From contig JACOUL010000033.1 in the NCBI GenBank assembly GCA_016177875.1, positions 124,001 through 188,000 on the forward strand: a DNA stretch of 64,000 nucleotides, read 5' to 3'. The notes below the pieces were generated by a model. It did no database searches and was not told the origin of the DNA. It saw nothing but the letters and a program-made list of their open reading frames with translations. Source of the DNA: Burkholderiales bacterium (lineage in GTDB: Bacteria > Pseudomonadota > Gammaproteobacteria > Burkholderiales > Burkholderiaceae_D). Below are positions 24,202-60,250 of this stretch, piece after piece. A program made the position numbers and the translations under genes. Within the stretch, counting starts at the first letter, position 1, and the number at the start of each line of letters is the position of its first letter.

Positions 24202-26037
24202 ATGCGCCGCTTTTCATACATTCCCGAATTATTGCCAGACGAATTGCTTTACTCTTGGCTGGCTCGTCTCGCTGCCTTAAATGCATACCACCATCCACGA
24301 GAATTTCTTCTCGCCATAGTCGGGTCAAGTAACGCGGTCCTTAGCGTCGACCTTCCAACACTTTTAGATTCAATGCATCGCCGGTTGGGTGATATGTTTC
24401 CTTTTTCCACTCCCATTGATGCAATTCAGCGAGGAACTCTGTATCCGTATCATCGCCCATTTATTTCGCCTGATCGGAATGAAGCGATTGTCCAGATGCT
24501 GTTACATGAGGGCGGTAAAGGGCTTAAAACATTGCTTGGTCGAGTGGCAAATCGATTTGGAGCGTCACAGCCATTACGATATTGTCCGGCCTGTTTTGAA
24601 GCCGACTATACCCGTTTTGGAGTGCCATATTGGCGGCGTGTACATCAACTTCCAGGAGTGATTTGTTGCGTTATTCACGCTACTAGACTACTTGATCATG
24701 AGTTGCCCAGCACTACTGCGCATAAGCAGAGACTAATTCCCCCTGCGTTTGAACTCGGAAAGCATTCGGTCATCCACATAGCCTCAAAAAATCAAATTAA
24801 GCTCGCCATACTGTCGATCGATTTGTTGAAGGCGGCTTTGCCTCCCTTGGCGGGGGATGTGCGAGCTTTAGTTTATGGGAAGGCTGCTAAAGATCGAGGA
24901 TTGGTGAACAGTCGAGGCCGAGTGTGTCATGGCCAAATTGTCGGCGCGATAAGGAAGCGATTTAATGATTTTTCCGGCTTCGAGCATCGCGCGAGGCTCT
25001 TGGCTTCCGCGGCTCAACCATTAAGATGGGTAGCTGATATTTTCAATCGGCCGGAAAGGGCTGTCCATCCACTTTGTCATTTATTGCTTATTGATTTGCT
25101 TTGGGACGGCGTGGACGAGTTTTCTAAAGCGATTCTTGAAGTTACAAATGGTAATTGCGAGCCGAAAGTGGATGCTGGTTCTAAAGTTATTAGCCCTGCT
25201 CGCTTTTCCAAGCATGATCGCGGCATGAGTCAGATACTTCAAGATACCAGTATTTCGTGTAGAAGCGCTGCGGAATTATTGGGAATGTCGGTCACAACTG
25301 TGGTGAATCGTCGGCGCGCTTTGGGCATACCTATTTCCGAACGGCGTAAATTATTAGATGGGGAGAAGATCTCCGCAATCAATACGTCACTTGGGCGCGG
25401 ATATGCACTCGTTACAATCGCACATAGGCACAATGTTTCGTTAAGCACGGTATATCGATTACTTTCGCAGGATGCCAGCTTATTGGCAGCACGCAATCGT
25501 ACAGAGCACAAACAAGTTCGCGCTAGACAAAGAGAGCATTGGCTAAAGGCGCTAAATAGAAAAAAATCTGATGGCGTCAACCACGCTCGAAAGATTGCAG
25601 CAGACAGCTATGCTTGGTTATATCGGAACGACCGACCATGGCTAATGCAGATCAACAAACAATTCAGGGTCCCGTGTAAACGCATAGCACGGGTAGATTG
25701 GTCAAAACGGGACGACAAGTTATGCCAAGCTTTATCTCGGTTCATCAAGCAATTTTTTGGCAATAGGCCTCGTTTGCGGCTATCAAAGACTATGATGCTA
25801 AGGCAGTTGGGCGAAACCAATGTTCGGGCGCACTGGAGTAAACTTCCTAGATTAGCTTCAATGATTGAAGGGCATGCTGAGTCGATATTGGATTTCCAAA
25901 AGCGCAGAATCGATTGGGCGATTGACGCGCTCAAAAGAGATTCAGTTTCATTGCCACTTTGGCGAATACAACGAGCAGCGGGACTAAAAACCTGGTCTCC
26001 ATCTCTTCGCGCATATGCAAGGCAAAGACTCACCTAG
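24202..26037 (+). CDS. tnsD: TnsD, attTn7 (glmS) target selector, TniQ family
   Basis: 611-aa target selector. The N-terminal TniQ domain has the zinc-binding pattern Cys128-x2-Cys131, His148, Cys155/156 and His159. The C-terminal third shares recognisable sequence with Tn7 TnsD (508 aa): AWLYRNDRPWL, RVDWSKRD and ILDFQKRRIDWAI line up with the equivalent TnsD stretches. Known TnsD binds the end of the glmS coding region, which agrees with this element's location. It is longer than Tn7 TnsD because of a middle region (about residues 340-430) with two helix-turn-helix-like segments (SAAELLGMSVTTVVNRRRAL; GYALVTIAHRHNVSLSTVYRL). It closes the tnsABCD operon. Confidence 0.93.
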   Translation: MRRFSYIPELLPDELLYSWLARLAALNAYHHPREFLLAIVGSSNAVLSVDLPTLLDSMHRRLGDMFPFSTPIDAIQRGTLYPYHRPFISPDRNEAIVQMLLHEGGKGLKTLLGRVANRFGASQPLRYCPACFEADYTRFGVPYWRRVHQLPGVICCVIHATRLLDHELPSTTAHKQRLIPPAFELGKHSVIHIASKNQIKLAILSIDLLKAALPPLAGDVRALVYGKAAKDRGLVNSRGRVCHGQIVGAIRKRFNDFSGFEHRARLLASAAQPLRWVADIFNRPERAVHPLCHLLLIDLLWDGVDEFSKAILEVTNGNCEPKVDAGSKVISPARFSKHDRGMSQILQDTSISCRSAAELLGMSVTTVVNRRRALGIPISERRKLLDGEKISAINTSLGRGYALVTIAHRHNVSLSTVYRLLSQDASLLAARNRTEHKQVRARQREHWLKALNRKKSDGVNHARKIAADSYAWLYRNDRPWLMQINKQFRVPCKRIARVDWSKRDDKLCQALSRFIKQFFGNRPRLRLSKTMMLRQLGETNVRAHWSKLPRLASMIEGHAESILDFQKRRIDWAIDALKRDSVSLPLWRIQRAAGLKTWSPSLRAYARQRLT

Positions 26038-26090: not shown

Positions 26091-27218
26091 ATGACAAGAA
26101 TTATTCAAGCCGATTTCATGCGCAGTGGCATGCCTGCTTTGCGCAATTGGGATGAGACTTTGAATATGTACTACGATGAGACCAACAACATACGGCGATT
26201 GTCGTTGTCGGAAGTAGGGTTAAACGCGCCGGCCGATCAGACCTTCGCAATCGCAGGAATTGCACTCAGGCCTGGACAAACTATATCTGGTTGGGAAGAG
26301 CTACGGAAGTTGATGCGCATCCAGCCTACTGCCACTGAGGTTAAGTTTAAGCATATTGCTCCTCCAGACTATGAAGGCACACTTTCATCGCACAAGCTAA
26401 CCGATGTACTGTCATGGCTACTCGATAACGATGTCTTAATCCACTATTCAGTACTCGACGTATTGCACTGGTCGATTCTCGACATTGTCGAGTCGTTGAT
26501 GGCAGACACCCGGATTTCGATTAGTCCATTTCATCTTGAGTTGAAAAACGAACTGTACCGTGCGGTGCGCACAGATCCTCCCGCATTCATGTCATTGCTT
26601 CACAACTTTTCTTATCCGAATTTAGATCATTCCTCTATTAGGCCATTTCTGGAAGCTGTTCTGTCTTTCATAGAGGAAAAGGTGAATGAGGATCGAAACT
26701 TAGCAATGATGATGCTCAAGCAGACTCTGCGCTATGCCGCCAGGTTGCCTGAGTTAGAGCTTCCTTTTTTACAGGACAATGAACCAGGCGAATTAATAAC
26801 CGACTTCAGCGTTCATTTTCTGCACTGTATGTACGTCTTTAAGCATGCTTCACATACCTTTGACAGGGAAACTTACATAGAGAAGATGCTTCAATTATTT
26901 GAGATTCGTGATGGTCAAAGGCGTGTGGATTATCGATTTTCTGATTCTAAGAACGAGGTTGGCGTCCAGGTGTCTGACGTGGTTGCAGGTTTGCTGGGAA
27001 GGCATTTCACTTACTTGCGAAATCACACTCTGATGGAGCTTCGGAAAAAGAAGGACGCATTGACTGCACAACAGTTAAAAAACCTGAATCTGCTCCGAAG
27101 ACTCGTTGATCGGTCAGATGCTTTTAGCGAAGGGCTATTTCATGCAGTGCTTCCGCTGGACACGCATTTTAAGAACAATGCGTTCCTCCATGAGGTCAAA
27201 GTCCCCGAACTTGAGTAA
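26091..27218 (+). CDS. DUF3800-like protein
   Basis: 375-aa cytoplasmic protein. It carries the two hallmarks of DUF3800 proteins: an early acidic motif (YYDETNN, about residues 26-32) and a late Ser-Asp...Asp motif (RFSDSKNEVGVQVSDVVAGLLG). Together these suggest an RNase H-like fold nuclease, though the biochemical function of most members is unknown. It begins 53 bp after tnsD on the same strand and could be cotranscribed with the tns operon; base composition resembles the tns genes. A second DUF3800 gene lies at 30255-31310. Confidence 0.7.
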   Translation: MTRIIQADFMRSGMPALRNWDETLNMYYDETNNIRRLSLSEVGLNAPADQTFAIAGIALRPGQTISGWEELRKLMRIQPTATEVKFKHIAPPDYEGTLSSHKLTDVLSWLLDNDVLIHYSVLDVLHWSILDIVESLMADTRISISPFHLELKNELYRAVRTDPPAFMSLLHNFSYPNLDHSSIRPFLEAVLSFIEEKVNEDRNLAMMMLKQTLRYAARLPELELPFLQDNEPGELITDFSVHFLHCMYVFKHASHTFDRETYIEKMLQLFEIRDGQRRVDYRFSDSKNEVGVQVSDVVAGLLGRHFTYLRNHTLMELRKKKDALTAQQLKNLNLLRRLVDRSDAFSEGLFHAVLPLDTHFKNNAFLHEVKVPELE

Positions 27219-27228
27219 GTAAATGTAT

Positions 27229-28140
27229 TTAGTCTCTGTCTAACTCAGCTAGCAATTCATCTGATTTTTCAACTAATGGCTTACGTTTCAGTTCGTCCAG
27301 CGTCTTGCCGTCCTTTGATTTCCATACGAGCCACCCATTGGTGCTGGTGCCCGATACTGTGTCTGAAGCGCCGCTTGGTGTTTTGAAGAGAACGTCCTTT
27401 TGAAATACATAAAAACCGTTTTCCTCTTTTAGCGTCTCTTCTGCCAACAGAGTTGCTCGTCTTTTGGCAAACCAGGTAGTGGATGCAGATGATTTAACCT
27501 CTATTCGTGCTTTGGAACCTTTTAAAACGACAAATCCTTCTTCGGTATATTCACCCTCCGCCTCGTATCCTGGCCCCTTCATGTAAAAAATATCCTGCGT
27601 TGTAATGCTGGATTTTGCTAGGGCTACTGGTTCGAAAATCGGCTGCCCCAGCGTAGCAAGCAATGTGCGCGCTGTATCGAATACGTCCATGCAGTCTGCT
27701 TCCAATGGTGCTGGAGTATGTGGCTTCGATCCGCTATTTCCATTTTTGATTGCATATCGAGAAGCCTGAATCGCCTGTTGAATGCTGCACCATTCGAGAA
27801 AGAGTGCATGTGTCTGAGTGAGGCTGTTCGTAAGCGATACAACTACAAAGGCGCGGTTCCAAAATTCTTTTGCCTTATGGTGATTAGCCAAACGTTCACC
27901 GAGACTGCCGGTCTGGCCGACATAAACGGCGGTTGCCTCGCCATTGTCGCTTTCCCCGATCAGGAAATATATGCCTACTTGTTTGGCCTCCGGCATAGCT
28001 TGGAACTGAGCAAGCAGTGATCGGGGAATCTCTATGACGCGAACAATACTTGTCGTCAGCTCCGCAACGCGAATGCCACGAGGATCGCCCGTTGGCAGAA
28101 AAATTTGGATAGTACGAGGCCGTAAAGTCATTGTCTTCAT
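27229..28140 (-). CDS. GIY-YIG nuclease domain protein with DUF4357-like C-terminus
   Basis: 303 aa. The GIY-YIG core runs from about residue 52 to 135: GIYFLIGES, then AVYVGQTGSLGERL with the conserved Tyr-Val-Gly and Arg, and LFLEW supplying a Glu. The C-terminal about 60 residues (VSGTSTNGWLVWKSKDGKTLDEL) look like the DUF4357 module that often follows such nucleases. The start codon directly abuts the stop (28141-28143) of the upstream PD-(D/E)xK-like gene, so the two are almost certainly translated from one mRNA. Proteins of this architecture are common in defence islands, but a defined activity is not established. Confidence 0.8.
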   Translation of the reverse strand: MKTMTLRPRTIQIFLPTGDPRGIRVAELTTSIVRVIEIPRSLLAQFQAMPEAKQVGIYFLIGESDNGEATAVYVGQTGSLGERLANHHKAKEFWNRAFVVVSLTNSLTQTHALFLEWCSIQQAIQASRYAIKNGNSGSKPHTPAPLEADCMDVFDTARTLLATLGQPIFEPVALAKSSITTQDIFYMKGPGYEAEGEYTEEGFVVLKGSKARIEVKSSASTTWFAKRRATLLAEETLKEENGFYVFQKDVLFKTPSGASDTVSGTSTNGWLVWKSKDGKTLDELKRKPLVEKSDELLAELDRD

Positions 28141-33795: not shown

Positions 33796-35103
33796 CTAGC
33801 GGGCAAAAGCGTGGGGCAATTCATTCCATCGTGTCGTGTACCTTGGAGTGCGATTATCGCAACGCATTTTCCAATTACTACGAACGCCTGCCGAGCCGAT
33901 GGTAATCGTGTCCTGCCCATATTCCCTGTTCAGATTGTCTAAAGTTTGCATCAGCTCACCAACGCGATCGGAAACAGCGCCCCTTAGGTCGAAGATAGAG
34001 CTTTGTCTTTGCTTTGAATTGGACAATTCCATCAGCATTACACCTGCCTTCTTATACTTATAACCGGGTCTGTAAATATGGCGTAGGCCAAATAAGGCAG
34101 CAGCGATGAGTACGCGTGTGTCGCCAGTTGGTTCTGGCAGCGACACGACAATGCCGTTGTTGTATTGCTCATCCTGCTTTCGAAATTGATTGGTATGAAT
34201 AAACACATGCACGGCACCGCAAACCGATTGCTGATGGCGCAGCTTTTCCGCGGCACGTGTTATATAGGTCGACACCGCTTCGATCAACTCTTCCAGCGAC
34301 GTGACTAATTCGCCAAAACTGCGAGAGCAGATGATTTGTTTTCTTGGTGGGGTAACATCTTCCAAGGCCAAGCAAGAAATGCCATTGAGCTCATCACATG
34401 TGCGTTCCATGACGACGCCAAACTGGGCGCGCAACCATTTTGGCGATGCTTGACGTAGCGCTTGCGCGGTATGGATGCCCATGGCGTGCAGGCGTTCTCC
34501 AATACGTCTGCCCACACCCCATACCTCACCGACATCAAGCGAAGAAAATAGCCTACTGATTTCGTTTTCACTCATTGTCGTGAAATCACACACGCCGTTG
34601 AGATCAATGTGTTTTTTTGCGACGTGATTGGCAAGTTTGGCCATGGTCTTGGAGGAGGCGAAGCCAACGCAAATCGGCAATCCTGTCCATTGCCGAATAC
34701 GGCAGCGAATCGCCTGCCCCAAGTCGTTCAATGTCGGCCACAACGCCGACAAGCCATTCAATCGAAGAAAGCACTCATCAATTGAGTACATTTCAACCTC
34801 AGGACTGAAGTCACGCAGAATCATCAGCACGCGGTTGGACATGTCCCCATAGAGCGTGTAGTTAGAGGAGAACGCCACAATGCCGTGCCGCTTCGCAAGG
34901 TCCTGCATTTGAAACCAAGGCGTCCCCATCTTGACGCCCAATGCTTTGACTTCGTTCGATCGCGCGACTGCGCAGCCGTCGTTATTTGAAAGTACGACGA
35001 CAGGAACACTTTCAAGCTTCGGATTGAACACGCGTTCGCACGACACGTAGAAATTGTTCACGTCGACTAGCGCGAACTGTTGTGATGTAAATGCCGCGGT
35101 CAT
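33796..35103 (-). CDS. umuC: DNA polymerase V catalytic subunit UmuC (Y family)
   Basis: 435-aa Y-family translesion polymerase. The catalytic carboxylates are visible in [11 protein letters not shown] near the N-terminus and [10 protein letters not shown] (the SxDE motif) at about residue 100. A helix-hairpin-helix region ([17 protein letters not shown]) and the C-terminal little-finger domain follow. The ATG at 35103 overlaps the umuD stop by 4 bp; the longer upstream reading adds an unrelated tail and is not used. Together with cleaved UmuD it would carry out SOS mutagenesis. Carriage on a Tn7-like element parallels umuDC-like operons on plasmids and ICEs. Confidence 0.95.
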
Positions 35104-35573
35104 ATCCGGAAACGGCGCACAAGGCTGCTTACTACGCCCCAAATCTGCAGCTCGTCAAAATCTGAAAATCGAATCGGTTGGTAATCCGGATTCTCCGGCC
35201 GGAGTTCAATAATCCCTCTTTGCATGTATAGACGCTTGATGGTGAATTCTTGGTTCACCACGGCGATAACAATATGCCGGTGCCGCGGCTCGATCGCGCG
35301 GTCAGCCAATACTTGGTCGCCGTCCAGAATGCCGGCATTTTTCATTGAGTGCCCTGCAACCGTGAACATGAACGTTGACGACTTATGAACGATTAGGTAT
35401 TCATTCAGGTCGAGCCCTTTTTCGATATAGTCCGCCGCCGGCGAAGGAAATCCGGCAGGAATGCGCTGCCCAAAGGTTCGGGTTTTCCAAGGAATTGGTA
35501 GCGAGGCTACGGGAACACGCTCCTGCAGCAGGGTCAGTTCGGTAGAAGGGTGAGGGAATTCAATTGCATTCAT
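35100..35573 (-). CDS. umuD: UmuD-like S24 protease, SOS mutagenesis
   Basis: 157-aa LexA/UmuD-type autoprotease. The self-cleavage site is Ala40-Gly41 (IPAGFPSP), the nucleophile is Ser76 (GHSMKN) and the general base is Lys113 (FTIKRL); the 37-residue spacing equals that of E. coli Ser60-Lys97. The start at 35573 (MNAIEFPHP) lies 12 bp from a consensus LexA box and gives normal family length; an upstream start at 35621 would place the operator inside the coding region. RecA-filament-stimulated cleavage activates it as the UmuC partner. Confidence 0.94.
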
Positions 35574-35585
35574 GATGCGTAAATA

Positions 35586-35605
35586 TACTGTATGCATGTA
35601 CAGTA
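35586..35605. promoter_or_regulatory. LexA (SOS) box of umuDC
   Basis: 20-bp palindrome with the strict CTGT-N8-ACAG core (core 35588-35603) and matching TA flanks on both sides. It is immediately upstream of umuD, where LexA would block RNA polymerase. The match to the gamma/beta-proteobacterial consensus is essentially perfect in the arms. Confidence 0.93.
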
Positions 35606-35791
35606 TATCAAGCAGTTCCAAAATGCAACTTTATGGAATTTTATGAGAACACAATAATTAGCCAATTCTCATAATTCTTCACAATTCCTATAAGCAATCG
35701 CTTTCTGAATGGATAATCAATGAGTGTTATGGCGCTCGCGACCGCTTTAATCGGCATTTCGAACACTTAACCTCTAAGGCAAAGGTATTTG

Positions 35792-50184: not shown

Positions 50185-52098
50185 TTAAGGCACGTAGCCG
50201 ATGTCCCACCCCTTGGCCGTCAATGCTGCAAGCGTTAGAGTATCTACCCGAGATTCGTTAGCCGCTAGACATAGGAGTTGAGTTGGTCTGGACATCGCCA
50301 CGTACAGGTTCCGCATCTGCAGCTGTTGGGTGGCTCTAAGCTTGTCGAATTCCTTGCCAGTGCCTGCGAGGAATGGAAGCGCGATCTGCAGGTCGAAACA
50401 TCGGCTCGTACCGTACGACTCCAACACGAGCGAAGCAACATGTGTCTCTCCCTTCATGCTGGCGACGGTGCCAAGGCTGTACTCCAGCACCCGACCAGAA
50501 TGTACCACGGTGCAAACTGTCGGCTGGTCCTCTTCTGCTGGCTCCTCCGCTAGCGGATTAGCGAAGAGGTCGAGTGTCTCGAACTCTTCGAAAGTCATTC
50601 CCTCCGGGAGGAGGTCGGCCAGATGCGCATACATCTTTGAAGCAAGCGCTGCTCTATCCTCTGAAGACGTAAGAGAAGGAGCGCTCACAGTAAGTTCGCG
50701 AATGAGTTTTTGCAGTTGCACAGCATCGCCCCGTTGTTCCTTCACCGCGCGGAGCAGGGCACGGCCGTCGCGCACTCCATCAGCTATGGGTGCCTTCGCG
50801 GCTCGCAGTGCCAGAAGTACTCCTCGACGTACTTCGGTGGCACGCTCAGCTAACGTAGGTCGCTGACGCGAGGAAGGTTGGTATTGGAGAATAACTTGCA
50901 AGTCGTCTTTGTTAGGCGACCGTTGTGCTCGCGCGAAGGCTGGCCAGTAATCCGCCAAATGGCGGCCGAGGTCCACGTTTCCGTCGCCTCCGCGACGTGC
51001 GCACATCGCTCGGATGGGATGGTTCGCCAGGGTGGCTTGGCCAAGGCGGTCGACGACGAGTTCACCGAAACGGTAGACTACACGCTTGATGCTGGCCGTT
51101 TTGTAGAGCAATAGAACCGGCTTGCAGACATCGTCGGCTTCTCCTATGACAGGCATCTGACTGACGCGAACGCTCGCTACAGCCTCTGCAATGCGTTTGC
51201 CGAAGCGTTTGCTGGTACTGATGGGGCCGTGGTCAGGCCGAGGAAAGGTGGTTTTGTCGGCTTTGGGATCTCCAGAAATGATTTTCTGATCGACGTCGCC
51301 AAAGCGTTGGACCACTGATCGATTGTCAAAGAGCCGATTTAAAATGTCTTCCTGCTCCCATGAAGTGTCCTGCATCTCATCGATGAAGACCATGGGGAAG
51401 CGCCGATGCACTACGTCCAAGAGATGCGGATGCTTGGCGAGGGCAAGCTCGGCATACGCGAACATATCTCGATGTCGAAAGACACCGCTCTCCGCGAGTT
51501 CTTTCTTCAACGTGACCATCTGTCTGTGAGTGAGAGTATTTGCACCCGGCAGCTTCCCGCCCTCGGACAAGACTTCAAGATTGGCGTTCTTGTAGAAGAG
51601 AGTACTTACCAAAGCCTCTGCGTTGGGCCGTTTGCTCAACCAGGTGCGTAGCTTCCCATATCGGTTACTCATCGCCAATGACCACGCTCGCTTCCCAAAA
51701 ACATCGTCGTCAATTACATCAACTTTGAGTTCTCGGCGACGTAGCGCGGCCATCGCCAAGAACTGGTTGACGAACCCATGGATGGTCCCGATGAAGTGTG
51801 GATAGGCCAACAGCCTAGAACCTTCTACCGACTTGGCGAGCCGGCGCGTAATCTCCTCACGTGCAACATTCGTGTGGCTTAGGACGCAGATGCCCTTGTC
51901 AGGGTGAGGCCACTTTCCGGCAAGCAGCAAGAGCTTTGCTGCGAGCAGAGAGGTCTTTCCACTACCAGGAACTGCATTGAAGTCCCTGGAGCAGTTCTCA
52001 AGTAGTGCAGCTTGCCGCTCCGCGTCGTCAAAACACAGGTCAGGAACGAACTGCGCCAGATGGTCCAAGTCCTGTGATTCGAGGAGAACTGATGTCAT
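50185..52098 (-). CDS. gajB: UvrD/Rep-like helicase, Gabija GajB-like
   Basis: 637-aa superfamily 1 helicase. Walker A AVPGSGKTSLL near residue 44, Walker B FIDEMQDTSWEQ near residue 245, an Asp-Gln motif (GDVDQKI) following, and motif V/VI-like sequence late (VASMKGETH, LYVAMSRPT). It is longer than the described GajB of Bacillus cereus. The start overlaps the OLD nuclease gene by 4 bp. In Gabija the helicase senses or loads on DNA ends while GajA cuts. About 210 bp after the stop (49973-50184) hold no gene. Confidence 0.85.
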   Translation of the reverse strand: MTSVLLESQDLDHLAQFVPDLCFDDAERQAALLENCSRDFNAVPGSGKTSLLAAKLLLLAGKWPHPDKGICVLSHTNVAREEITRRLAKSVEGSRLLAYPHFIGTIHGFVNQFLAMAALRRRELKVDVIDDDVFGKRAWSLAMSNRYGKLRTWLSKRPNAEALVSTLFYKNANLEVLSEGGKLPGANTLTHRQMVTLKKELAESGVFRHRDMFAYAELALAKHPHLLDVVHRRFPMVFIDEMQDTSWEQEDILNRLFDNRSVVQRFGDVDQKIISGDPKADKTTFPRPDHGPISTSKRFGKRIAEAVASVRVSQMPVIGEADDVCKPVLLLYKTASIKRVVYRFGELVVDRLGQATLANHPIRAMCARRGGDGNVDLGRHLADYWPAFARAQRSPNKDDLQVILQYQPSSRQRPTLAERATEVRRGVLLALRAAKAPIADGVRDGRALLRAVKEQRGDAVQLQKLIRELTVSAPSLTSSEDRAALASKMYAHLADLLPEGMTFEEFETLDLFANPLAEEPAEEDQPTVCTVVHSGRVLEYSLGTVASMKGETHVASLVLESYGTSRCFDLQIALPFLAGTGKEFDKLRATQQLQMRNLYVAMSRPTQLLCLAANESRVDTLTLAALTAKGWDIGYVP

Positions 52099-54122
52099 GC
52101 AGTCTCTCTTACGCCTGATTCAGTACCGACCGGGGTCCCAACGACCGTCGGTGCGACCGATGCGTGGAGGGGCGCACCAGTGGCCTCTGTTGGTGCAGCT
52201 GGTGGCATGGTGAGGTGAGCGAGTGCGTCTTGGAGATACTGAGGTAGCTTCTTGAAGAGTGCATCGCCCTTGCCATAGTCCCCGGACGCCAACAACTGAG
52301 CTGCATATTGCGCAGCAATGGCCTTGGATGCCTTCTTCTCATAGAGGGGCTGATAGATAATAGATGCCAGCTTCTCCGCCGTGTGCTTGGCTGCCTGAAG
52401 GGTCTTCCATGATGCCTCGGCCGCAGCTTTGACGAGTTTCTCATCGCTATCGCTGAGCTTTTCGCCTTTGATCTCTGCAGTCTCGGCCAACGAAATGGCG
52501 ATGAACATCACCTCAGCGCAGCCGCTCAGCGCGAGATCGTACTCCAAGGTCCATCGGTCCGATACGCAGACAATGGTCTTGCCTCCCTGCGCTCGGTTTT
52601 TTTTGCGTTGAATGAGGTCAGCTAGGCCTTTAGCGTCATAGTCTGAATCGAATCGCTTTCCTTTCTTTGGCTTTTCCACGTACGTGTTTGCCACGTCCGG
52701 AACGACGTCGCGGTCGGTTAGGCAGACAACCGGGACCGGGTACTCTGGACTGGGAGCCTGGCGTTGCAGAATGCGTGCATAGTGGTAGAGGCCTGTGTGT
52801 CCCACATTCACGATGGAGACACCGTGTTTCGAGAACGACCGGTCGCAGGCTTCCGCAAGCGTGGGAAGCAGAATGGCCTCGGCTGGACCCTCGACCATCA
52901 TCACGCCCCGAGCGAAGAATAGGTTGGCTTTGGTAGCGTCGATGAAGCGTTGCAAGAACGAGTAGTCGGTCTTCTGCAGCTTGGTGTATCCAGACGCTAG
53001 CGGATACGTCTGTCCCTTATGTACCATCGTCATCGTCTCGATGTCGGCGCTCGAAACCAGCGACGGACTGTGTGTAGTCATCACCACCTGAACACGGCGC
53101 TCTCCATCCGGCACTTCCTTTGAATGTTGTTTGAGCAGCTCCATGACACGGTCCTGGAGCTGCGGATGTAAATGTGCCTCCGGCTCTTCGACTAGCAGTA
53201 GCGCGAGTTCGTCACCGTCACGAAGTAGGACCAACTCGGTAGCCATGAAGAGAGCGTTGTTGTACCCCAGGCCGCGATCGCAACGTTCGTCGGGATGAAC
53301 CGAGCCACCCGGGGAGAGCAACAGTTCGAACTTCTCCAGAATTGGCGTCAGTGAGAGGTCTGAAGCTATTCGAATTCTCGACTCCAACCGGTCGCCCGCA
53401 AACGCGAATTCACCGAGGTAATTTTTATTGATGTCCTCTTGCACGCTCTTGATAACCTTGTGCTCGCCGAGATGGTGCTGGGCGAAGGCCATCAGCCCTA
53501 CCAAGTTTTCGGGGACCGTATCGGGAGCGCTCATGGAAAAGTCATTGACTTCCTGTCCAGCGATATGATTGTGTGCAGCGAGGATTTGCGAGAGACGAGA
53601 TTGACGCCCCGGTCGCAATTCGGCCTCTGCATCGCGAAGCGGGCGCAGGTAAGTTGCGCGGATGAGCTCACGGACCGCATAGCCAATCTCAGGGCCGGTA
53701 CCATCTTTCCCTGCTCGCACGATAGTGTCTACGCGGGCACGCTTCGTGGCCTGCGCAGGGAAAAACTTGGCGTGAAGGTGTACGATGAGTGAGCAGGTAT
53801 CGTCGTCCTCAAGAGTGAGCCACTCCAGAACAGCGCCTTCCTGCTCTTTAGACAGGCCGCTCAGTGTGGCCTCAATGAACAGGCTTTGGGCCCTAGTAGA
53901 GTTATAGATATGAAAGTCCCGCTCATAGAGCCGGACGCTTTCGTAGCTGGTAGTAAGCAGGACTTGGCGGATGGCATCGACGATTCCAGTCTTCCCGGCG
54001 TCATTCTCGCCCACTAGAATGTTCAGGCCTGGATTCAGTTCCCAATCCAGTTCGGGCATATTAGTGCCGTCGCCGAACGCACGGAAATTACGGGCTCTGA
54101 TGCGCTTCAGATACATGCTCAC
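52095..54122 (-). CDS. gajA: Class 2 OLD ATPase-TOPRIM nuclease, Gabija GajA-like
   Basis: 675 aa. N-terminal ABC-type ATPase with Walker A GENDAGKT (residues 38-45), signature region before VEEPEAHLHP (Walker B) and THSPSLV (H-loop). A C-terminal TOPRIM domain follows, with MVEGPAEAILLP and CLTDRDVVPD supplying the metal-binding acidic residues. The Ala/Pro/Thr-rich last 40 residues are an extension. OLD nuclease followed directly by a UvrD-type helicase is the defining order of Gabija anti-phage systems. Base composition is more GC-rich than adjacent cargo, suggesting separate acquisition. Confidence 0.88.
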   Translation of the reverse strand: MSMYLKRIRARNFRAFGDGTNMPELDWELNPGLNILVGENDAGKTGIVDAIRQVLLTTSYESVRLYERDFHIYNSTRAQSLFIEATLSGLSKEQEGAVLEWLTLEDDDTCSLIVHLHAKFFPAQATKRARVDTIVRAGKDGTGPEIGYAVRELIRATYLRPLRDAEAELRPGRQSRLSQILAAHNHIAGQEVNDFSMSAPDTVPENLVGLMAFAQHHLGEHKVIKSVQEDINKNYLGEFAFAGDRLESRIRIASDLSLTPILEKFELLLSPGGSVHPDERCDRGLGYNNALFMATELVLLRDGDELALLLVEEPEAHLHPQLQDRVMELLKQHSKEVPDGERRVQVVMTTHSPSLVSSADIETMTMVHKGQTYPLASGYTKLQKTDYSFLQRFIDATKANLFFARGVMMVEGPAEAILLPTLAEACDRSFSKHGVSIVNVGHTGLYHYARILQRQAPSPEYPVPVVCLTDRDVVPDVANTYVEKPKKGKRFDSDYDAKGLADLIQRKKNRAQGGKTIVCVSDRWTLEYDLALSGCAEVMFIAISLAETAEIKGEKLSDSDEKLVKAAAEASWKTLQAAKHTAEKLASIIYQPLYEKKASKAIAAQYAAQLLASGDYGKGDALFKKLPQYLQDALAHLTMPPAAPTEATGAPLHASVAPTVVGTPVGTESGVRETA

Positions 54123-54427: not shown

Positions 54428-55620
54428 TTACAGTCGCTTAAGTCGTTCTTTCTTCTCAAAATCCACCCATTTTGTACGGCGGTTTGCGACATCGGCATCT
54501 AGATTAACCACCTTGCTTTGGTCTATTAGGTTTTTTAAGGCTGCTTGTAACTCAGATGGGTAAGACATGGTCTGATGAAGTGCATGCGCAAACACATCCA
54601 TATTCACTGCCAGCGTTTTGTTGCCGATCAGAGTTAGCCAGTACGATTCCAAACTCTTGATATCAATTTGCCGCGGAGCCGTGGTTTGCTCACCATCGAC
54701 ACCAAATAGATCGGCAGTTTTCGAGTCCTCGACCTTCTTATTTAACTTTGCAGCGTGCCGAACCTTTGCTTGAATCGAATCGAGTTTCTCTGACACGGTC
54801 ATAAATTCGATAATGCCAAGTGGATGGCTCGTCAAATAGATCAAGTGATACTTCGTACGGTCAATCACTGGATCTAATACAGTGACGTAGGCGGACATAG
54901 GTTTGCCTCTGAATGTGTTTGTGCGCTTCGTGATCTCAGAACGGTAGAGTTGGAGAAAAAATTGTTCGCGCTCCGCCGGGTCGTCAGGAAGATCTTTTTC
55001 GTCAAAATCTCTTCCGATCATTTTCGCGACTTTATCCTTCATCGTCTCCATAGACGCATGCCAATTCAAGAAGCTGTACATGAAATTGATCAGAAATTCG
55101 CTGCCAGATCGCTTGAGCAATTTATCCAGAACTTCTGGGTCTACAGTGGCCCAGTTTTTGGGGTCGATAAAGAAGAAAGCAAAGCTATCCTGAGGGCAAT
55201 GCTTCAAGATATCGTCGATTTTCTCGGTAAAGTCCCCATGAATCGCACTTGTGCCGACGTTCTTGGGTGAGTTCAGCGATAGAAACTTTTCTAAGCGAGA
55301 AAACGCCTTGTTATTTTTTCAACGAAGACTGCTCGAAATCGGACCGATTTATTCTTTGCGTCGAGATCTTTGTGGACTTTGGAAAGCAGGCTAAGAGAAA
55401 TCCCAATGGATGTAGAAGATAGATCATCGCTTTCATCCTGCCAGGGGCCGGCGAAGCAATCGACAAAAACGATTTCCTTATAGCCAAGTTGAGCCGCGCT
55501 CCAGCCAACGATGCGGAGCAGACGTTCCAGATACCGTTCTAGAAGCAAATGTTTGATGAAAGCTTGCTCCCGTCCTTTATATGGTGGCGGGATGATTTCA
55601 TGTGGGTTGAATTGGATCAT
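54428..55620 (-). pseudogene. Second three-Cys-motif partner protein (TcmP), frameshifted
   Basis: TcmP-like gene broken by one missing base. The N-terminal part (ATG 55620, MIQFNPHEI, with KEIVFVDCFAGPW) ends at a TAG at 55291. The remaining two-thirds (FAFFFIDPKNW, then helical C-terminus to 54428) are in another frame. The junction is an A6 tract (complement of T6 at 55314-55319): a seventh A restores VEKNNKAFSRLEKF and a continuous ~397-aa protein. DCFAGPW and FFIDP resemble motifs I and IV of Rossmann methyltransferases. A true mutation, sequencing error or slippage-based phase variation are all possible. Confidence 0.8.
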
Positions 55621-55657
55621 GTGGCGAGAAATGACCTGTACTTGATCATGTAATGGA

Positions 55658-56938
55658 TCAGAAAATAAAAATCGAACGCTGTCTATGCGGAACGATGATG
55701 TCGTTTCTGTGAATCGAAGTGCCCTTGGCGCGCGTTCCGCCTTCGGGGGTGCGTGCTTCAATTTCTTTGGTCAAAATGAAATGATGAAGCGACTCTTTCA
55801 CAATATCGGCGGTGGCGTTCGTGCGATTGGCGATACTCTCCATCAATTCGATAAAAGGCACACCTTTTTGGTAATCGTAGATAAGTCGTGGAAGCTGTTC
55901 GCTTAGGTTAATGACACTGGCGTTATACAGCTCTTGATCGAAGGCGGCCGGCTCGGCAAAGCCCAGGCCTCGCTGGCCCGTGACAGATTCATCTTGATTG
56001 GCTTGGTAGCCGATTTGAAAGAGTCCGGCTTCAAGGCTATGGCCGAAACTGTTACCGTGTTCCCAATGCACGGCTTTCATCACATCGTTAGCTTTATAGG
56101 CATTGGACAGGTGAACAAGCCAATAGGACCAAGGCGTGTCACCGCGTGGCGTCACAAAGAACAATGTCATGAATCGCGCACCGCTTGCCTTCCAAATACC
56201 GTATGCAAGCTGCCTCTGGATTATCTCGCGCCAGCGTGTCTCGGCCTTCAGGCGAGCATATCCCTGCCAGTCGATGTACTCCTCTAATCCGATTCTACGA
56301 GTGATCGCGTGAAACTGTTCATTGTCAGATAGGAACGCTAACAATGAGTCGACATTGAATGTCAGGATGATTTCTGCGCCCTGCAAGGACGTGAGGATGT
56401 TTCGTACGGTCGCAAGCTCGATGTCATCGTATGCGTATTGATCGAGAAGGAAGAGCGCACGTTGCCCACCTTTGCGTGCCGCGGCCTTAGCAACTATGGA
56501 CTGGCATACATCTTCGAAAGCATTTTGGTAAAGAATAATGTCTCTACCAATTCTCTCGCCATATCCCTCGCAATTCAGAACGTGTTTAAGGTATTCGAAA
56601 TTGCTCTTCTTGAATTCGACGAAGTGATATTCAGTATCAACCTGTCGCTGCGTTTTTTGGCGATTTCGGTTGAGATCGATGTTTGCTTCTTCAACGGTTT
56701 TCAGTAACAGCAGTGGCGAGCCATAAGCAGTCGTGCTGCCGTTGTCGTAGAGTCCTCCGCCGGCGAAACCGTCGACGAGCGTGAGCTTGAGCTTTGGCAT
56801 GCGCTCATTGGCCATGAGCACACGGATATACCGATAGAGGTAATCTTGGACCAGCTGATGTTTGACTTTGCTATGTGGATCAAGTGCTGGAGGCGCGTGC
56901 CCAATAATCCAGTCCCATTTATCACTCGTTTTACTCAA
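55658..56938 (-). CDS. tcmP: Three-Cys-motif partner protein TcmP
   Basis: 426 aa, intact. LTLVDGFAGGGLY at about residue 51 is the glycine-rich DxFAGxG motif of the family, and ALFLLDQYAYDDI at about residue 160 occupies a motif-IV-like position, so a Rossmann methyltransferase-like fold is likely; the C-terminal third is helical. TcmP proteins are defined by co-occurrence with radical-SAM-like three-Cys-motif (DUF5131/Gp37-Gp68) proteins, as here. It is the middle gene of the LexA-controlled trio, 38 bp after the DUF5131 gene and 37 bp before the frameshifted paralogue. Confidence 0.85.
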   Translation of the reverse strand: MSKTSDKWDWIIGHAPPALDPHSKVKHQLVQDYLYRYIRVLMANERMPKLKLTLVDGFAGGGLYDNGSTTAYGSPLLLLKTVEEANIDLNRNRQKTQRQVDTEYHFVEFKKSNFEYLKHVLNCEGYGERIGRDIILYQNAFEDVCQSIVAKAAARKGGQRALFLLDQYAYDDIELATVRNILTSLQGAEIILTFNVDSLLAFLSDNEQFHAITRRIGLEEYIDWQGYARLKAETRWREIIQRQLAYGIWKASGARFMTLFFVTPRGDTPWSYWLVHLSNAYKANDVMKAVHWEHGNSFGHSLEAGLFQIGYQANQDESVTGQRGLGFAEPAAFDQELYNASVINLSEQLPRLIYDYQKGVPFIELMESIANRTNATADIVKESLHHFILTKEIEARTPEGGTRAKGTSIHRNDIIVPHRQRSIFIF

Positions 56939-56976
56939 ATCCGAGCCTTTTTATTAATGGGACGAAGGGCCTCCTG

Positions 56977-57840
56977 TTATGTCGCTAGTTCAGGCACCTG
57001 ATCCCAGGTCATGCCACCAAGTTGTCGACCGCCTTTGCTCTTTCCGACTTTGACGAGGCTAATTACTTCACCACTGCGGCCGATCACGTTTATGCGTTGC
57101 GCGCGTGCAGAAATACCTTCAGCAATGAGTTCTTCTGGTGCCCAATGTCCCCATTGTTTGAAGTGGAAGGGCACGCCGGCTTCTTGGCATTGATCTCGGA
57201 TGTCTTCCGGCCATGCCGGATTCATCGATCGAGAGTCAGGGCCGCTCTCGCCTCCGGCGATTACCCAATTGATTCCGGGCGTTGTCGATCCAGGGGCGGC
57301 TAGCCAGGACTCTAAGTGTAACGGTCCCAAAAGTGGCTCTGCAGATATAAAGCGTACCACCACATCATGTTCTAGCAAATGGTCAATCCGCTTTTCGAGC
57401 CAATGCTGATTTTCCGTGCTGGTGCCGAGCCAGATATTGTGAGGCCATGGACCTGACCATGGCGACAGCTTTTTCACATGACGTATGCGTTTAGTAAGCA
57501 GTAGCCAATCAAGATGAGGTGTGGCTTCGATTAAGCCCCATAGACGCTCTCTGGTTGAATCCAAATCCCGCCGGTCTTCAAAGACATCTGCCATCGATGC
57601 GCAAAATACTCGACGCCGCTCGCCAGCACTAGTTGCTTCGCGATCCCATTTCAATGGCTCGCGCCAATGGGCATCGGTAAAGAAGCGGCGAGGTGCTTGT
57701 TTGCCCCAAAGCTTTTCCATGCCAACACGCTTAGCCCAAGTTTCCGCATAGCAGTGTTTGCAAGCCGGCGAAATTCGCACGCAGCCCCACCACGGATTAA
57801 ACGTATGGTGTGTCCACTCGATTTTGCTATTCATACCCAT
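56977..57840 (-). CDS. DUF5131 / phage Gp37-Gp68-like three-Cys-motif protein
   Basis: 287 aa. The N-terminus has the family signature IEWTHHTFNPWWGC, with the three cysteines in GCVRISPACKHCYAE (Cys-x7-Cys-x2-Cys), a radical-SAM-like arrangement. Conserved WLLLTKR, WLGTSTEN and GGESGPDSRSM follow, and the protein ends with GGRQLGGMTWDQVP. The ATG at 57840 has GGGGA 6 bp upstream; 57834 is an alternative. A LexA box lies 23 bp upstream. Substrate and reaction unknown. Confidence 0.88.
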   Translation of the reverse strand: MGMNSKIEWTHHTFNPWWGCVRISPACKHCYAETWAKRVGMEKLWGKQAPRRFFTDAHWREPLKWDREATSAGERRRVFCASMADVFEDRRDLDSTRERLWGLIEATPHLDWLLLTKRIRHVKKLSPWSGPWPHNIWLGTSTENQHWLEKRIDHLLEHDVVVRFISAEPLLGPLHLESWLAAPGSTTPGINWVIAGGESGPDSRSMNPAWPEDIRDQCQEAGVPFHFKQWGHWAPEELIAEGISARAQRINVIGRSGEVISLVKVGKSKGGRQLGGMTWDQVPELAT

Positions 57841-57862
57841 AGCGATTCCCCAATTTCAATAG

Positions 57863-57882
57863 CACTGTAATTTTATACAGTA
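57863..57882. promoter_or_regulatory. LexA (SOS) box of the DUF5131-TcmP operon
   Basis: 20-bp site with strict CTGT-N8-ACAG core (57865-57880) and a TA flank on the right. It lies 23 bp before the DUF5131 start, the position expected for SOS repression. It closely resembles the umuDC site at 35586-35605. Confidence 0.88.
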
Positions 57883-57907: not shown

Positions 57908-58135
57908 CTATTCTGAATCTAAACGTATGGTCTTTTTATCAATTGCCTTCATGCATTGCATGAAAAACGAAAAAGAAAAGGCACCGCGATTAATCTTATT
58001 CGCAATGCCTTTGTAGCTTTCTTCGATACCCAAGCCGGCCAACCGTGTGACAAGCTCGGAATAGCTCACTCCTGCTAAGTCCAATTCGGCCTTAAGCAAT
58101 CTGCTGGCTTTTGTTGACCACTCGTTTCGTTCCAC
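57908..58135 (-). CDS. DUF6471 small HTH-like regulator
   Basis: 75 aa. WSTKASRLLKAELDLAGVSYSELVTRLAGLG, ESYKGIANKINRGAFSFSFFMQCMKAIG-like segments (written here in part) match the DUF6471 family of short helix-turn-helix proteins. Transcribed away from tniQ2, with twin palindromes in the shared upstream region, so it is the likely repressor acting there. Confidence 0.8.
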   Translation of the reverse strand: MERNEWSTKASRLLKAELDLAGVSYSELVTRLAGLGIEESYKGIANKINRGAFSFSFFMQCMKAIDKKTIRLDSE

Positions 58136-58150
58136 GGGATGGCTCGGTTA

Positions 58151-58226
58151 TCTACAAATATGTAGATTATTAAATAAATATGGAGTTTAAGCTACGCTTT
58201 TAAGTAAAATTCTACAAATATGTAGA
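58151..58226. promoter_or_regulatory. Twin palindromic operators between DUF6471 and tniQ2
   Basis: Identical 16-bp sequences with TCTACA/TGTAGA arms and AATA centre occur at 58151-58166 and 58211-58226, exactly 60 bp apart (about six helical turns). They flank the divergent promoter zone; the first is 16 bp upstream of the DUF6471 start. The arrangement suggests cooperative or looped binding. Confidence 0.7.
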
Positions 58227-58326: not shown

Positions 58327-60033
58327 ATGGCTGTACTTCCTTATTTACCGGCCCCGTATCCAGATGAAATTTTTGGCTCCTGGCTCAAACGGATCTCATT
58401 GCACAACAGTCGAGGAGCCTGGCAAGTTCTTGTAGAAGAGTCGGGAATTGCAGCCATTCAAGCTACTTTCTTCGATATGGTTTCGTATGACCCACGGCTT
58501 GATAGGCTACTTGTAGCGTTGGGTACAAATTATGAAAGCACGATGCTGGAATTAAGCACCATGCCGTATTGGTTGGCATTTAATTCGTTAGAGCTATCGG
58601 CCGGATCTTTGCCAGGGACGAGATCAATTCCGAGGTTATTAGGAAACAAAGGGCGGATTCTTCGCGGGGCGTTACACGCTGTTGGAATCGCAAGAGGGGA
58701 AAGGAAAGCGCGTCAACTTCGTTATTGCTGCGAATGTCTCGCAGAAAATCATTCAGAATTAGGCGAACCATATTGGCACCGTTCACATCAGCTTCCGAAT
58801 GTTTTTTATTGTCCCAAACATGGGAAACGACTGTATGTTTCATGTCCGGCTTGTAACGAAGATATCGTTCAAGTTACAAGTTCGCTCGTGGCATTACCGA
58901 GATTGATTTGCAGTTGTGGTTTTGATTTTCGTAAAGATAGACAAAAAATACCAACAGCACCGCCATATCTAAAATTGGCACAAATAAGTTCACATGCACT
59001 AAGCAATGGATTGCCAAGCTGGTCCCACCAAGATGTTCGCAGCTACTTTGCCGAGCTAATTTCGTCGTCCGATCAAAAAATTAATAAATATATTGACGCA
59101 CTCGTGTCAGCGTTCGGACAAAGTCGTGAGTTGGCGACCCAAAAAAAGCTGGAGTTCAATGTGCCCAACGAACCAGATATGACGATGTCTTTAAATCGCC
59201 ATTATTCAGCAGCTTTTTCTCAGGAATTTTGTGGCTTGTTAGTTGCATACGATCTTCCATTTGAAAAAGCCCGCGCAGGATTTATCAAATGCAAAGGTGA
59301 AGAGGGGAAAAAAATAAAGCCAATAGATCGACTAGACCTTTCTTCAGCCGTTAAATCTACTGAATTGGCTCGCAAGGCACTACTTGAGAAGCTAGCCCGA
59401 AATCCTAAAGAACCCGTCGCCAGCCATAAAGGACTTTATTGGCATTTGCGGTTTAACGATACCGAATGGTTTTTGAGTCAGTTTCCAAATTTTCGGGGTA
59501 GATCAATTCAAAGTGTGGCCGAAGATCGGCGTGAAATTAAACGATATCTGCAAGAGAAAGGGGAGAAAGGACTAAATCGCACGCCCTTTATGATGCGTGC
59601 TTTGGCACGCGACAAAGATTGGTGGCTTAATTATTTTGAGAATTACAAACAGAAAAAGAATAAACGTGTCCAAGAAGCACGAAATAAATTAATAAAGGAA
59701 ACCGCGGGGAAAATGATTTCTGCCTTGAATGATCTATTAAAAAATGAGGACCGTCCTGAATGGATTACTCCTAGGAGACTTGGGAAATTTCTAAATTTAT
59801 CGAGCCCTCAAGCTCAACATTTAGTTCGAAACTCTCCAGAGCTTCGAGCTGCATTAGAATCGGCTAACAAAGACAAGCTCCGGCGTCAGTTAAGGTGGGC
59901 GGCAAGGCAACTCCGATTAGAAGGCAGGTATTTATCTCCATATACGGTTTGTATTTTTGCGAAGTTACCAACCGAACGAGAAATTAGTGTCATTGCACGC
60001 GAAGTTATTGAGCAAATTCAGGACGAGGATTAG
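58327..60033 (+). CDS. tniQ: Second TniQ/TnsD-family target selector
   Basis: 568 aa. N-terminal TniQ domain starting PAPYPDEIFGSWLKRIS, zinc-binding pattern Cys134-x2-Cys137, His154, Cys162, His165, then a second ribbon with Cys173-x2-Cys176 and Cys195-x-Cys197. Residues after about 330 are helical and basic, ending in WAARQLRLEGRYLSP, and do not resemble the C-terminus of the glmS-targeting TnsD at 24202. So it probably recognises a different target or works with a partner. The ATG has GAGG 6 bp upstream. It ends about 180 bp before the glmS-proximal transposon end. Confidence 0.88.
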   Translation: MAVLPYLPAPYPDEIFGSWLKRISLHNSRGAWQVLVEESGIAAIQATFFDMVSYDPRLDRLLVALGTNYESTMLELSTMPYWLAFNSLELSAGSLPGTRSIPRLLGNKGRILRGALHAVGIARGERKARQLRYCCECLAENHSELGEPYWHRSHQLPNVFYCPKHGKRLYVSCPACNEDIVQVTSSLVALPRLICSCGFDFRKDRQKIPTAPPYLKLAQISSHALSNGLPSWSHQDVRSYFAELISSSDQKINKYIDALVSAFGQSRELATQKKLEFNVPNEPDMTMSLNRHYSAAFSQEFCGLLVAYDLPFEKARAGFIKCKGEEGKKIKPIDRLDLSSAVKSTELARKALLEKLARNPKEPVASHKGLYWHLRFNDTEWFLSQFPNFRGRSIQSVAEDRREIKRYLQEKGEKGLNRTPFMMRALARDKDWWLNYFENYKQKKNKRVQEARNKLIKETAGKMISALNDLLKNEDRPEWITPRRLGKFLNLSSPQAQHLVRNSPELRAALESANKDKLRRQLRWAARQLRLEGRYLSPYTVCIFAKLPTEREISVIAREVIEQIQDED

Positions 60034-60166: not shown

Positions 60167-60180
60167 AATTATCCATAATT
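60167..60180. repeat. Internal TnsB-type binding box at glmS-proximal end
   Basis: AATTATCCATAATT, identical to 60217-60230 and 50 bp internal to it; the complement resembles the box at 19711-19723. Spaced sites at one end and a single close site at the other fit the asymmetric left/right ends of Tn7 (the spaced end being the left end). Confidence 0.65.
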
Positions 60181-60216: not shown

Positions 60217-60250
60217 AATTATCCATAATTTTAGTAATTTAAAGATCATT
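60217..60250 (-). repeat. Transposon terminal inverted repeat, glmS side
   Basis: Complement matches 19690-19723 in 29 of 34 positions. Begins TGATCTTTAAAT when read inward from glmS. It ends about 20 bp from the glmS stop codon, the classical Tn7 insertion zone. A terminal TG is present at this end, while the other end reads TC. Confidence 0.8.

Follow-up and report, generated by a model that had tools for sequence, protein, structure and literature searches.

What an operon that joins a DUF5131 protein to TcmP-type proteins does for its carrier, and whether it is switched on by DNA damage, are the questions raised by the window, i.e. the whole stretch of 64,000 nucleotides of Burkholderiales DNA analysed here. 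The coordinates of the relevant features are presented in Table 1.

Table 1. Features of the window that bear on the DUF5131-TcmP operon and its carrier element.
Feature	Position	Strand	Remark
Inverted AATTATCCATAATT copy	19710-19723		one mismatch; beside tnsA
Transposition genes: TnsA-like, 736-aa protein in tnsB position, TniB/AAA ATPase (TnsC-like), TnsD	19751-26037	+	
umuD-umuC (DNA polymerase V)	33796-35621	-	SOS cargo of the element
Second LexA box of the element	35588-35603		5' end of umuD
gajB and gajA (Gabija)	50185-54122	-	next downstream of the operon
TcmP2 gene region	54428-55620	-	frameshifted as assembled near 55295-55318
TcmP1 gene	55658-56938	-	TIGR04474 206 bits, cut-off 53; 426 aa
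DUF5131 gene	56977-57840	-	PF07505 E 9e-84; 287 aa
LexA box CTGTATAAAATTACAG, core CTGT-N8-ACAG	57865-57880		upstream of DUF5131
DUF6471 small-protein gene	57908-58135	-	just upstream of DUF5131
Palindrome TCTACAAATATGTAGA, copy 1	58151-58166		before DUF6471
Palindrome TCTACAAATATGTAGA, copy 2	58211-58226		before DUF6471
Second TniQ-type protein	58327-60033	+	glmS end
Two AATTATCCATAATT repeats	60167-60180, 60217-60230	+	glmS end
glmS	from 60270		recognised by eye

The DUF5131 gene lies directly upstream of TcmP1, and the minus-strand run with 37-38 bp gaps that an earlier note on this DNA had described was borne out, the gaps being 38 and 37 bp. The naming of the first product as a DUF5131 protein was likewise confirmed by Pfam. 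Its cysteine cluster, given previously as Cys-x7-Cys-x2-Cys, was corrected to C20-x6-C27-x2-C30. Two TcmP proteins had been claimed; TcmP1 scored far above the TIGR04474 cut-off, whereas the second gene is frameshifted as assembled, since it is spread over two frames which each match a part of intact TcmP2 proteins. The corresponding open reading frames, 55291-55761 and 54428-55207, align with residues 1-102 and 102-395, respectively, of the intact protein of relative L055, and TcmP2 is intact also in L057, L058 and L059. The DUF6471 gene and its palindromes, two identical copies of 16 bp each, were absent from the earlier note; the gene is also found upstream of DUF5131 in the near relatives L027, L028 and L029 and possibly encodes the operon's own regulator. 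A search for promoters and terminators near the LexA box gave no terminator and one promoter-like site, located elsewhere (1.5 in shuffles).

The LexA core CTGT-N8-ACAG reported before the first start codon is present, but its distance to the DUF5131 ATG is 24 nt instead of the claimed 23. The 16-bp core was detected at 25 sites of the 3.78-Mb genome compared with 13 for the reversed control and, because of this ratio, it is weak evidence when taken alone and was rejected as proof of LexA control. The extended form TACTGTA-N7-ACAG was found at 7 places (8 strand hits) of the same 3.78 Mb and at none in the control. These places include the window box, lexA, the umuDC genes that share the element with the operon and a PA0069/SplB-type gene. 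The lexA gene of this genome (TIGR00498, 239 bits) is preceded by two CTGT-N8-ACAG cores, and the PA0069-family gene also has a LexA box before it. By sequence match, the operon has a box appropriate to its bacterial class near its start. In the nearest loci the position of the box is kept in 6/6 cases (five perfect and one with a mismatch, in five distinct upstream regions) while the flanks diverge. Judged from these sequences, the window box is no chance match.

The earlier note had suggested a survey of LexA boxes at homologous loci, and such boxes were found in alpha-, beta- and gammaproteobacteria, in the latter at one locus. The 284 loci taken gave 261 with a callable DUF5131 start and 238 distinct upstream regions after short, N-holding and duplicate ones were dropped; the start codons were set by rule, and box-to-start positions may be off by at least one codon. 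The class labels were assigned either by kinship, with members of the same phylum but another class counted as alpha (likewise the order of G554), or, for named records, by title, with two titled merely 'Proteobacteria' (L064 and L069) counted as beta and one titled 'Pseudomonadota' (L094) as other. The alphaproteobacterial motif GTTC-N7-GTTC was detected in 17 of the 51 alpha upstream regions of TcmP-partnered DUF5131 genes with 0.22 expected, and the beta motif CTGT-N8-ACAG in 5/39 with 0.08 expected, one of the five being the window itself. Other spacings and the swapped motif gave almost no matches, so that the LexA spacing alone stands out, also when one mismatch is allowed. Among the named relatives, which are the best 80 of 307, perfect boxes were present in 5/34 distinct beta and 6/16 distinct alpha upstream regions, with 0.04 expected in each case from tiles of the same loci rather than from other promoters, and the swapped motifs were found in 0/34 and 0/16, respectively. 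When dyads were counted with no LexA motif given, GAAC-N7-GAAC ranked second in the alpha set behind an overlapping register, and ACTG-N9-ACAG shared the first rank in the beta set with an unrelated dyad. In alpha operons in which TcmP comes first, the motif is located near the TcmP start in 6/10 compared with 0.18 expected. What can be read directly from the sequences is the presence of the box, the order of the genes and the return of the box, in the form of each class, at related operons.

The distribution of the box is uneven. It is lacking in its perfect form from 34/51 alpha, 34/39 beta and 5/6 gamma TcmP-partnered upstream regions, and neither LexA motif was detected in the 19 TcmP-partnered loci of other phyla, where other GTTC/GAAC dyads and LexA-like dyads also gave no clear signal. 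At least 20 changes of box state were counted on a FastTree tree of DUF5131 (208 rows), which indicates that the box was not inherited as one block. It was found in 26/113 upstream regions with a TcmP partner against 1/82 without, a comparison confounded by ancestry, and in the paired tree test the tendency of the box to follow the partner was not significant (8 independent pairs, median p 1). A sister group (L060, L061, L063 and L064) has no LexA box and shares another site instead; in the two members examined, L060 and L063, a divergent HTH-like gene was recognised by eye. This sister group, together with the identical palindromes before DUF6471, would suit the view that the likeness of the box to a LexA site is fortuitous and that control lies with DUF6471 or another local repressor. 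Such a view is very improbable, as the place of the box is conserved in the nearest loci despite their diverged flanks and class-matched boxes at LexA spacing recur in far relatives.

The structure of the DUF5131 protein was modelled with a pLDDT of 95. Among the matches listed, the best was spore photoproduct lyase (Z 13.3, rmsd 3.5, 209 residues), followed by a viperin-like protein (Z 11.1), and 47 of the 50 listed matches are, from their titles or from what is known of them, radical-SAM enzymes. The Foldseek result was modest, with a best E of 2e-4 and TM of 0.43, and UV-damage endonuclease in third place. C20, C27 and C30 are invariant (97/97). Their arrangement, C-x6-C-x2-C in the window, differs from the canonical radical-SAM motif CX3CX2C, and some members of the superfamily are known with other spacings. 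A radical-SAM fold with three cysteines suited to a 4Fe-4S cluster is accordingly what the model predicts. The likeness to spore photoproduct lyase is confined to the fold: Pfam gives DUF5131 alone, which it describes as of unknown function, and a profile search of the PDB sequences did not return spore photoproduct lyase. Searches of PDB sequences with DUF5131 or TcmP, as a single sequence or a profile, led nowhere, as did the literature searches on the pair and on Tn7-like elements with umuDC; the name DUF5131 was in no paper within the literature searched. DUF5131 is nevertheless common, with matches detected in 36/294 genomes of the window's family, 41/397 of its phylum and 72/347 of an order taken as alphaproteobacterial.

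TcmP1 exceeds the TIGR04474 cut-off and adjoins a three-Cys-motif protein, which together define its family. Its model (pLDDT 87) matched RlmJ best (Z 17.5, rmsd 3.8, 225 residues) and Trm1 second (Z 14.6). In motif I, D-x-F-x-G, D56 and F58 are present in 84/84 TcmP sequences and G60 in 76/84. At the motif IV position, which reads D166-Q-Y-A-Y in TcmP1, the Asp is invariant and is followed by Q in 54/84 and by P in 30/84. The winged helix PF22560 was scored at 22.4 bits in TcmP1, below the cut-off of 27, and at E 0.01 it was detected in 34/84 TcmP proteins. The prediction for TcmP1 is a class I methyltransferase that resembles RlmJ and carries a winged helix at its C-terminus. Structure prediction had been proposed earlier as a check on both proteins, and it yielded a radical-SAM fold for DUF5131 and a class I SAM-methyltransferase fold with the motif I residues kept for TcmP1. 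As far as sequence allows, the regulatory and chemical inferences of the earlier note survived their refutation tests and are partly supported; the role in 'modification or defence' that it gives the pair is still what we infer.

The Tn7-like nature of the carrier, also claimed before, is supported by the TnsA-like, TniB/AAA (TnsC-like) and TnsD genes, by repeats found towards either end and by the adjoining glmS. The 736-aa protein in the tnsB position had no Pfam match. In all, tnsABCD-type genes are combined with insertion at the glmS side, and similar inverted repeats lie near both ends of the element, of which the AATTATCCATAATT copies are likely transposase-binding end repeats. In Collimonas (L062) the pair is also located beside glmS. 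Other carriers were found among plasmids: seven Pseudomonas-group loci, including pCAR1, hold the same pair in the same order, and in 6/7 it is preceded by a site-specific integrase gene with a DNA-binding-protein gene divergent from it; one of these DNA-binding proteins bears the annotation Tn4652 cointegrate resolution protein T. From IMG/VR, 17/69 upstream regions of the set had TcmP beside DUF5131. These carriers could mean that the pair serves the mobile element itself, as a passenger or helper of transposons, plasmids and prophages which is turned on when a damaged host should be left. This is unlikely, as the carrier types are unrelated, the plasmid copies behind an integrase have no exact LexA box (0/7 of the plasmid loci), and only 6 of 50,697 phage records match TcmP1, none of them over 80% of its length.

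Besides Gabija, the element holds other genes matched by PADLOC, and PADLOC candidate models PDC-M30 and PDC-M41 match the pair itself. The main rival to lesion processing is accordingly anti-phage defence that uses the SOS response as an infection alarm, where damage by phage or nuclease, with Gabija adjoining, would induce the pair, which would in turn modify or damage the nucleic acid of the invader. At E 1e-10, 65 PADLOC families were counted among 120 proteins near 20 related loci, chosen by hand for the length of their contigs, and 8 among 112 proteins of 19 control stretches from the same genomes; the counts refer to families and the genes were called heuristically, one protein may match several families, and one near stretch ended at its contig end. 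Ordinary household families, GidA and NDK among them, also occur near these loci in the first 25 of 108 Pfam families, and among the same first 25 of 108 Pfam families no common partner was detected except TniQ (3/120). According to PMC10855318, PDC-M30 is predicted in 32/100 P. aeruginosa strains of one panel, 68.8% of which are phage-resistant, a correlation; in the same paper, the PADLOC candidates stand on guilt by embedding, with no tests behind them. LexA control and a fold like that of spore photoproduct lyase suit damage processing at least equally, and the defence reading is considered possible but not probable.

The operon is, on balance, probably an SOS-inducible mobile module for the processing or modification of nucleic-acid lesions, a LexA-repressed pair of a putative radical-SAM enzyme and a putative methyltransferase. 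As cargo of the Tn7-like element beside glmS, it would be kept silent by LexA until DNA damage leads to RecA-driven LexA cleavage, the promoter is freed and DUF5131 and TcmP are made. The former would be a radical-SAM enzyme with the architecture of spore photoproduct lyase, the latter an RlmJ-like methyltransferase of nucleic acids that uses SAM and ends in a winged helix, and both would act together on nucleic acid that is damaged or foreign. TcmP would most likely bind or methylate a base, and DUF5131 would perform radical chemistry on it that either reverses the lesion or modifies the base. We infer here that LexA binds the box and that the operon is induced, as well as that the substrate is nucleic acid and that the purpose is to process damage rather than to defend; a common fold is no proof of DNA as the target, and RlmJ is an rRNA enzyme. 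Much more tentatively, DUF5131-TcmP might represent an unrecognised, widely mobile arm of the SOS response across alpha-, beta- and gammaproteobacteria, rewired to the LexA motif of each. As a system of two enzymes for lesion reversal or base editing, it would have the methyltransferase mark or prime the damaged or foreign base that the spore-photoproduct-lyase-like radical-SAM enzyme reworks.

Class-specific LexA control would place the pair in the physiological setting of DNA damage, which makes simple tests possible, and the two genes can now be examined for a role in the response to such damage. Should DNA be what the pair repairs or modifies, methyltransferase-partnered radical-SAM chemistry would join the SOS response, and the Tn7-like element would move SOS functions (umuDC and the pair) along with defence genes.

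Several known systems resemble the operon in part. TcmP1 resembles RlmJ, the 23S rRNA A2030 N6-methyltransferase, in its predicted fold, motif I and the Asp at the motif IV position. Motif IV of RlmJ is of the DPPY type; in TcmP, residues other than these come after D-Q or D-P, and many members have a winged helix. In NCBIfam, TIGR04471 and TIGR04470 stand for a mobile pair of radical-SAM proteins with related parts. DUF5131 matched radical SAM mobile pair A (TIGR04471) weakly (E 5e-6, 26 bits compared with a cut-off of 355), and the PA0069-type protein matched pair B (TIGR04470) with E 6e-23 and 81 bits compared with 410, whereas the partner in the window is a predicted methyltransferase and not a second radical-SAM protein. 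The pCAR1-type plasmid copies have the same pair and order on a mobile replicon, but differ in the integrase before them and in the box. PDC-M30 and PDC-M41 comprise the same two proteins, their A models matching TcmP and their B models DUF5131; they are defined by embedding near defence genes, their name occurs once in each of two papers within the literature searched, and LexA is unmentioned in the accessible part of PMC10855318. The closest parallel in regulation is SplB, a radical-SAM protein of the spore-photoproduct-lyase type, which is described as LexA-regulated in alpha- and betaproteobacteria in PMC3323433, PMC8565304 and PMC3765255, the first two of which also report that the LexA motifs of these classes differ. 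The combination of such a radical-SAM protein, as DUF5131 is predicted to be, with a LexA box is also seen for the PA0069-family gene of the window's genome; DUF5131 is distinguished by its other Pfam family, its C-x6-C-x2-C cluster, its one or two TcmP partners and, here, its location on a mobile element.

The genes for DUF5131 and two TcmP-type proteins form a minus-strand run with gaps of 38 and 37 bp, as the earlier note described, except that the second TcmP carries a frameshift in the assembly. Two different frames, which meet near 55295-55318, match residues 1-102 and residues 102-395 of the intact relative at L055, a related locus in another genome. Intact two-TcmP operons were found in relatives such as L055, L057, L058 and L059, and a single TcmP in others. 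The cysteine cluster of DUF5131 is C-x6-C-x2-C and not the Cys-x7-Cys-x2-Cys assigned previously. An extra TcmP-like frame, divergent and upstream of DUF5131, was seen at the related loci L061, L088, L091, L102 and L104. The two identical palindromes preceding DUF6471 are perhaps the operator of DUF6471 itself.

Features of the DUF5131-TcmP region and of the element carrying it
Feature	Position	Strand	Remark
Transposition genes	19751-26037		TnsA-like, 736-aa protein in tnsB position (no Pfam match), TniB/AAA ATPase, TnsD
PDC-S51 and PDC-S14	26091-28140		adjoining PADLOC single-gene candidates beside transposition genes
umuDC	33796-35621		element cargo
LexA box of umuDC	35588-35603		perfect
Second TcmP	54428-55620	-	last of run
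TcmP1	55658-56938	-	after DUF5131
DUF5131	56977-57840	-	after LexA core
LexA core CTGTATAAAATTACAG	57865-57880		between DUF6471 and DUF5131
DUF6471 gene	57908-58135	-	first in minus-strand order, ahead of LexA core
Palindromes TCTACAAATATGTAGA	58151-58226		two, 16 bp each, 60 bp apart
TniQ protein	58327-60033		
glmS	from 60270		recognised by eye

The plain LexA core occurred at 25 places in the genome compared with 13 for the reversed control, so that by itself it proves little and was ruled out as a sufficient sign of LexA control. The extended pattern TACTGTA-N7-ACAG resulted in 7 places and no control matches, and in none across the genome when the spacer was one base shorter. The 7 places include lexA, umuDC, a PA0069-family radical-SAM gene and the DUF5131-TcmP operon, which supports the view that the box before DUF5131 is more than a chance match.

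At -40 to -42, all six nearest loci (at least 84% identity; five distinct upstreams, since two loci share one) have the box, which is perfect in five of them and differs at a single base in the sixth; the DNA flanking it has diverged among near relatives. In the named genomes (best 80 of 307 relatives in a DUF5131 alignment scan), perfect CTGT-N8-ACAG was found in 5/34 distinct beta upstreams (expected 0.04), and in 13/34 with up to one mismatch (expected 1.12). The alphaproteobacterial motif GTTC-N7-GTTC (available text of PMC8565304 and PMC3323433) was perfect in 6/16 distinct alpha upstreams (expected 0.04), and present in 9/16 with up to one mismatch (expected 1.10). With the perfect motifs swapped, this set gave 0/16 in alpha and 0/34 in beta.

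The survey proposed in the earlier note was extended to 284 loci, 261 of them with a callable start, of which 238 distinct upstreams were kept. Class-matched perfect boxes were detected with TcmP downstream or convergent in 17/51 alpha (expected 0.22), 5/39 beta (expected 0.08; the window is one of the five) and 1/6 gamma upstreams. At non-LexA spacers of 2 to 15, no more than 3 of the 51 alpha upstreams matched at any one spacing (range 0 to 3), and none of the 39 beta upstreams did. When a single mismatch was tolerated, 27/51 and 13/39, respectively, matched at the LexA spacing, compared with at most 13 and 4 at the other spacings tried. For DUF5131 genes with no TcmP found, the perfect box counts were 0/18 (alpha), 1/16 (beta, a Collimonas remnant) and 0/48 (IMG/VR). 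In a motif-free count of all gapped dyads, GAAC-N7-GAAC ranked second in alpha, after an overlapping register, and in beta ACTG-N9-ACAG tied for first with the unrelated ATTG-N6-TGCA. In TcmP-first alpha operons the motif lay within -150 to +120 of the TcmP frame opening in 6/10 (expected 0.18), which indicates that it tracks the operon head.

A FastTree tree built from 208 DUF5131 rows requires at least 20 changes of box state and at least 10 of TcmP state, and the rows with a box form 22 separate all-box clades; the boxes are therefore not one inherited block. A box accompanied 26/113 TcmP-partnered versus 1/82 lone DUF5131, a contrast confounded with ancestry, and the independent-pairs test (8 pairs) was not significant.

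The perfect box is absent from 34/51 alpha and 34/39 beta TcmP-partnered upstreams, and neither LexA motif was found in 19 TcmP-partnered loci of other phyla. The sister group L060, L061, L063 and L064 has, instead of a LexA box, a common site close to TATATGCTTTACATGCATAA upstream of DUF5131, and a regulator swap is possible there; a divergent HTH-like gene was seen at L060 and L063, the two loci looked at. DUF5131 precedes TcmP in all seven Pseudomonas-group plasmid loci, none of which has an exact box and one a one-mismatch site. In six (L349-L354, including pCAR1) the pair directly follows a site-specific integrase gene. This gene is divergent from one for a DNA-binding protein, in one case carrying the annotation Tn4652 cointegrate resolution protein T. 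At L348 (P. aeruginosa plasmid), a DUF5131 missing from the gene table sits between two annotated TcmP genes and looks broken, because it was matched in two different frames. Judged from these upstream sequences, LexA control of DUF5131-TcmP operons would be frequent rather than universal.

As the earlier note stated, the run is carried by a Tn7-like element. The element spans about 40 kb, has similar repeats near both ends and adjoins glmS. The SOS mutagenesis genes umuDC travel as its cargo with their own box. In Collimonas humicola (L062) a decayed copy beside glmS (by eye) consists of DUF6471, a perfect box and DUF5131 cut to 209 aa; TcmP was looked for there and none was found. That the pair serves the mobile element is a less likely explanation. 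The main rival, a phage-defence module, is possible but rather doubtful. It draws on the PADLOC models that match the pair (PDC-M30 and PDC-M41), on the neighbours of 20 related loci, which match 65 PADLOC families versus 8 for control stretches, and on a loose correlation in a P. aeruginosa panel (available text of PMC10855318). The element's cargo also includes Gabija gajA-gajB and more genes with PADLOC matches.

Structure prediction, likewise proposed earlier, placed DUF5131 (97 sequences, pLDDT 95) nearest to the radical-SAM spore photoproduct lyase (Z 13.3, rmsd 3.5, 209 residues), followed by viperin-like enzymes (11.1) and by SuiB, lipoyl synthase and RlmN (about 10). Foldseek scores were modest: the two matches with E <0.001 were both spore photoproduct lyase (best TM 0.43), and UV-damage endonuclease was third. 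C20, C27 and C30 are invariant in 97/97. The TcmP1 model (84 sequences, pLDDT 87) was closest to the methyltransferase RlmJ (Z 17.5, rmsd 3.8, 225 residues), then Trm1 (14.6). K26, D56, F58 and D166 are invariant in 84/84, motif IV is D-Q in 54 and D-P in 30, and the PF22560 winged helix was matched by 34/84 (E 0.01). Both folds are predictions, and a common fold reveals no substrate.

DUF5131 is named in no paper of the literature searched; in the available text, papers with 'three-Cys-motif' mention TcmP in gene lists. DUF5131-TcmP was absent from the titles and abstract openings of the papers listed that connect LexA or SOS to radical-SAM enzymes, spore photoproduct lyase or a methyltransferase. 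According to the available part of PMC3323433, SplB, of the spore-photoproduct-lyase type, is LexA-regulated in alpha- and beta-proteobacteria, and the evidence is of the same kind as for DUF5131, namely sites in two groups with differing LexA motifs. DUF5131 appears to form a second branch of this radical-SAM type within the SOS response, joined here to a methyltransferase. This favours damage-induced lesion processing or base modification, which we consider the probable role of DUF5131-TcmP, its exact chemistry being less certain. As an SOS-controlled radical-SAM enzyme, DUF5131 would belong to a known kind, in this case with a methyltransferase attached and carried on mobile elements.
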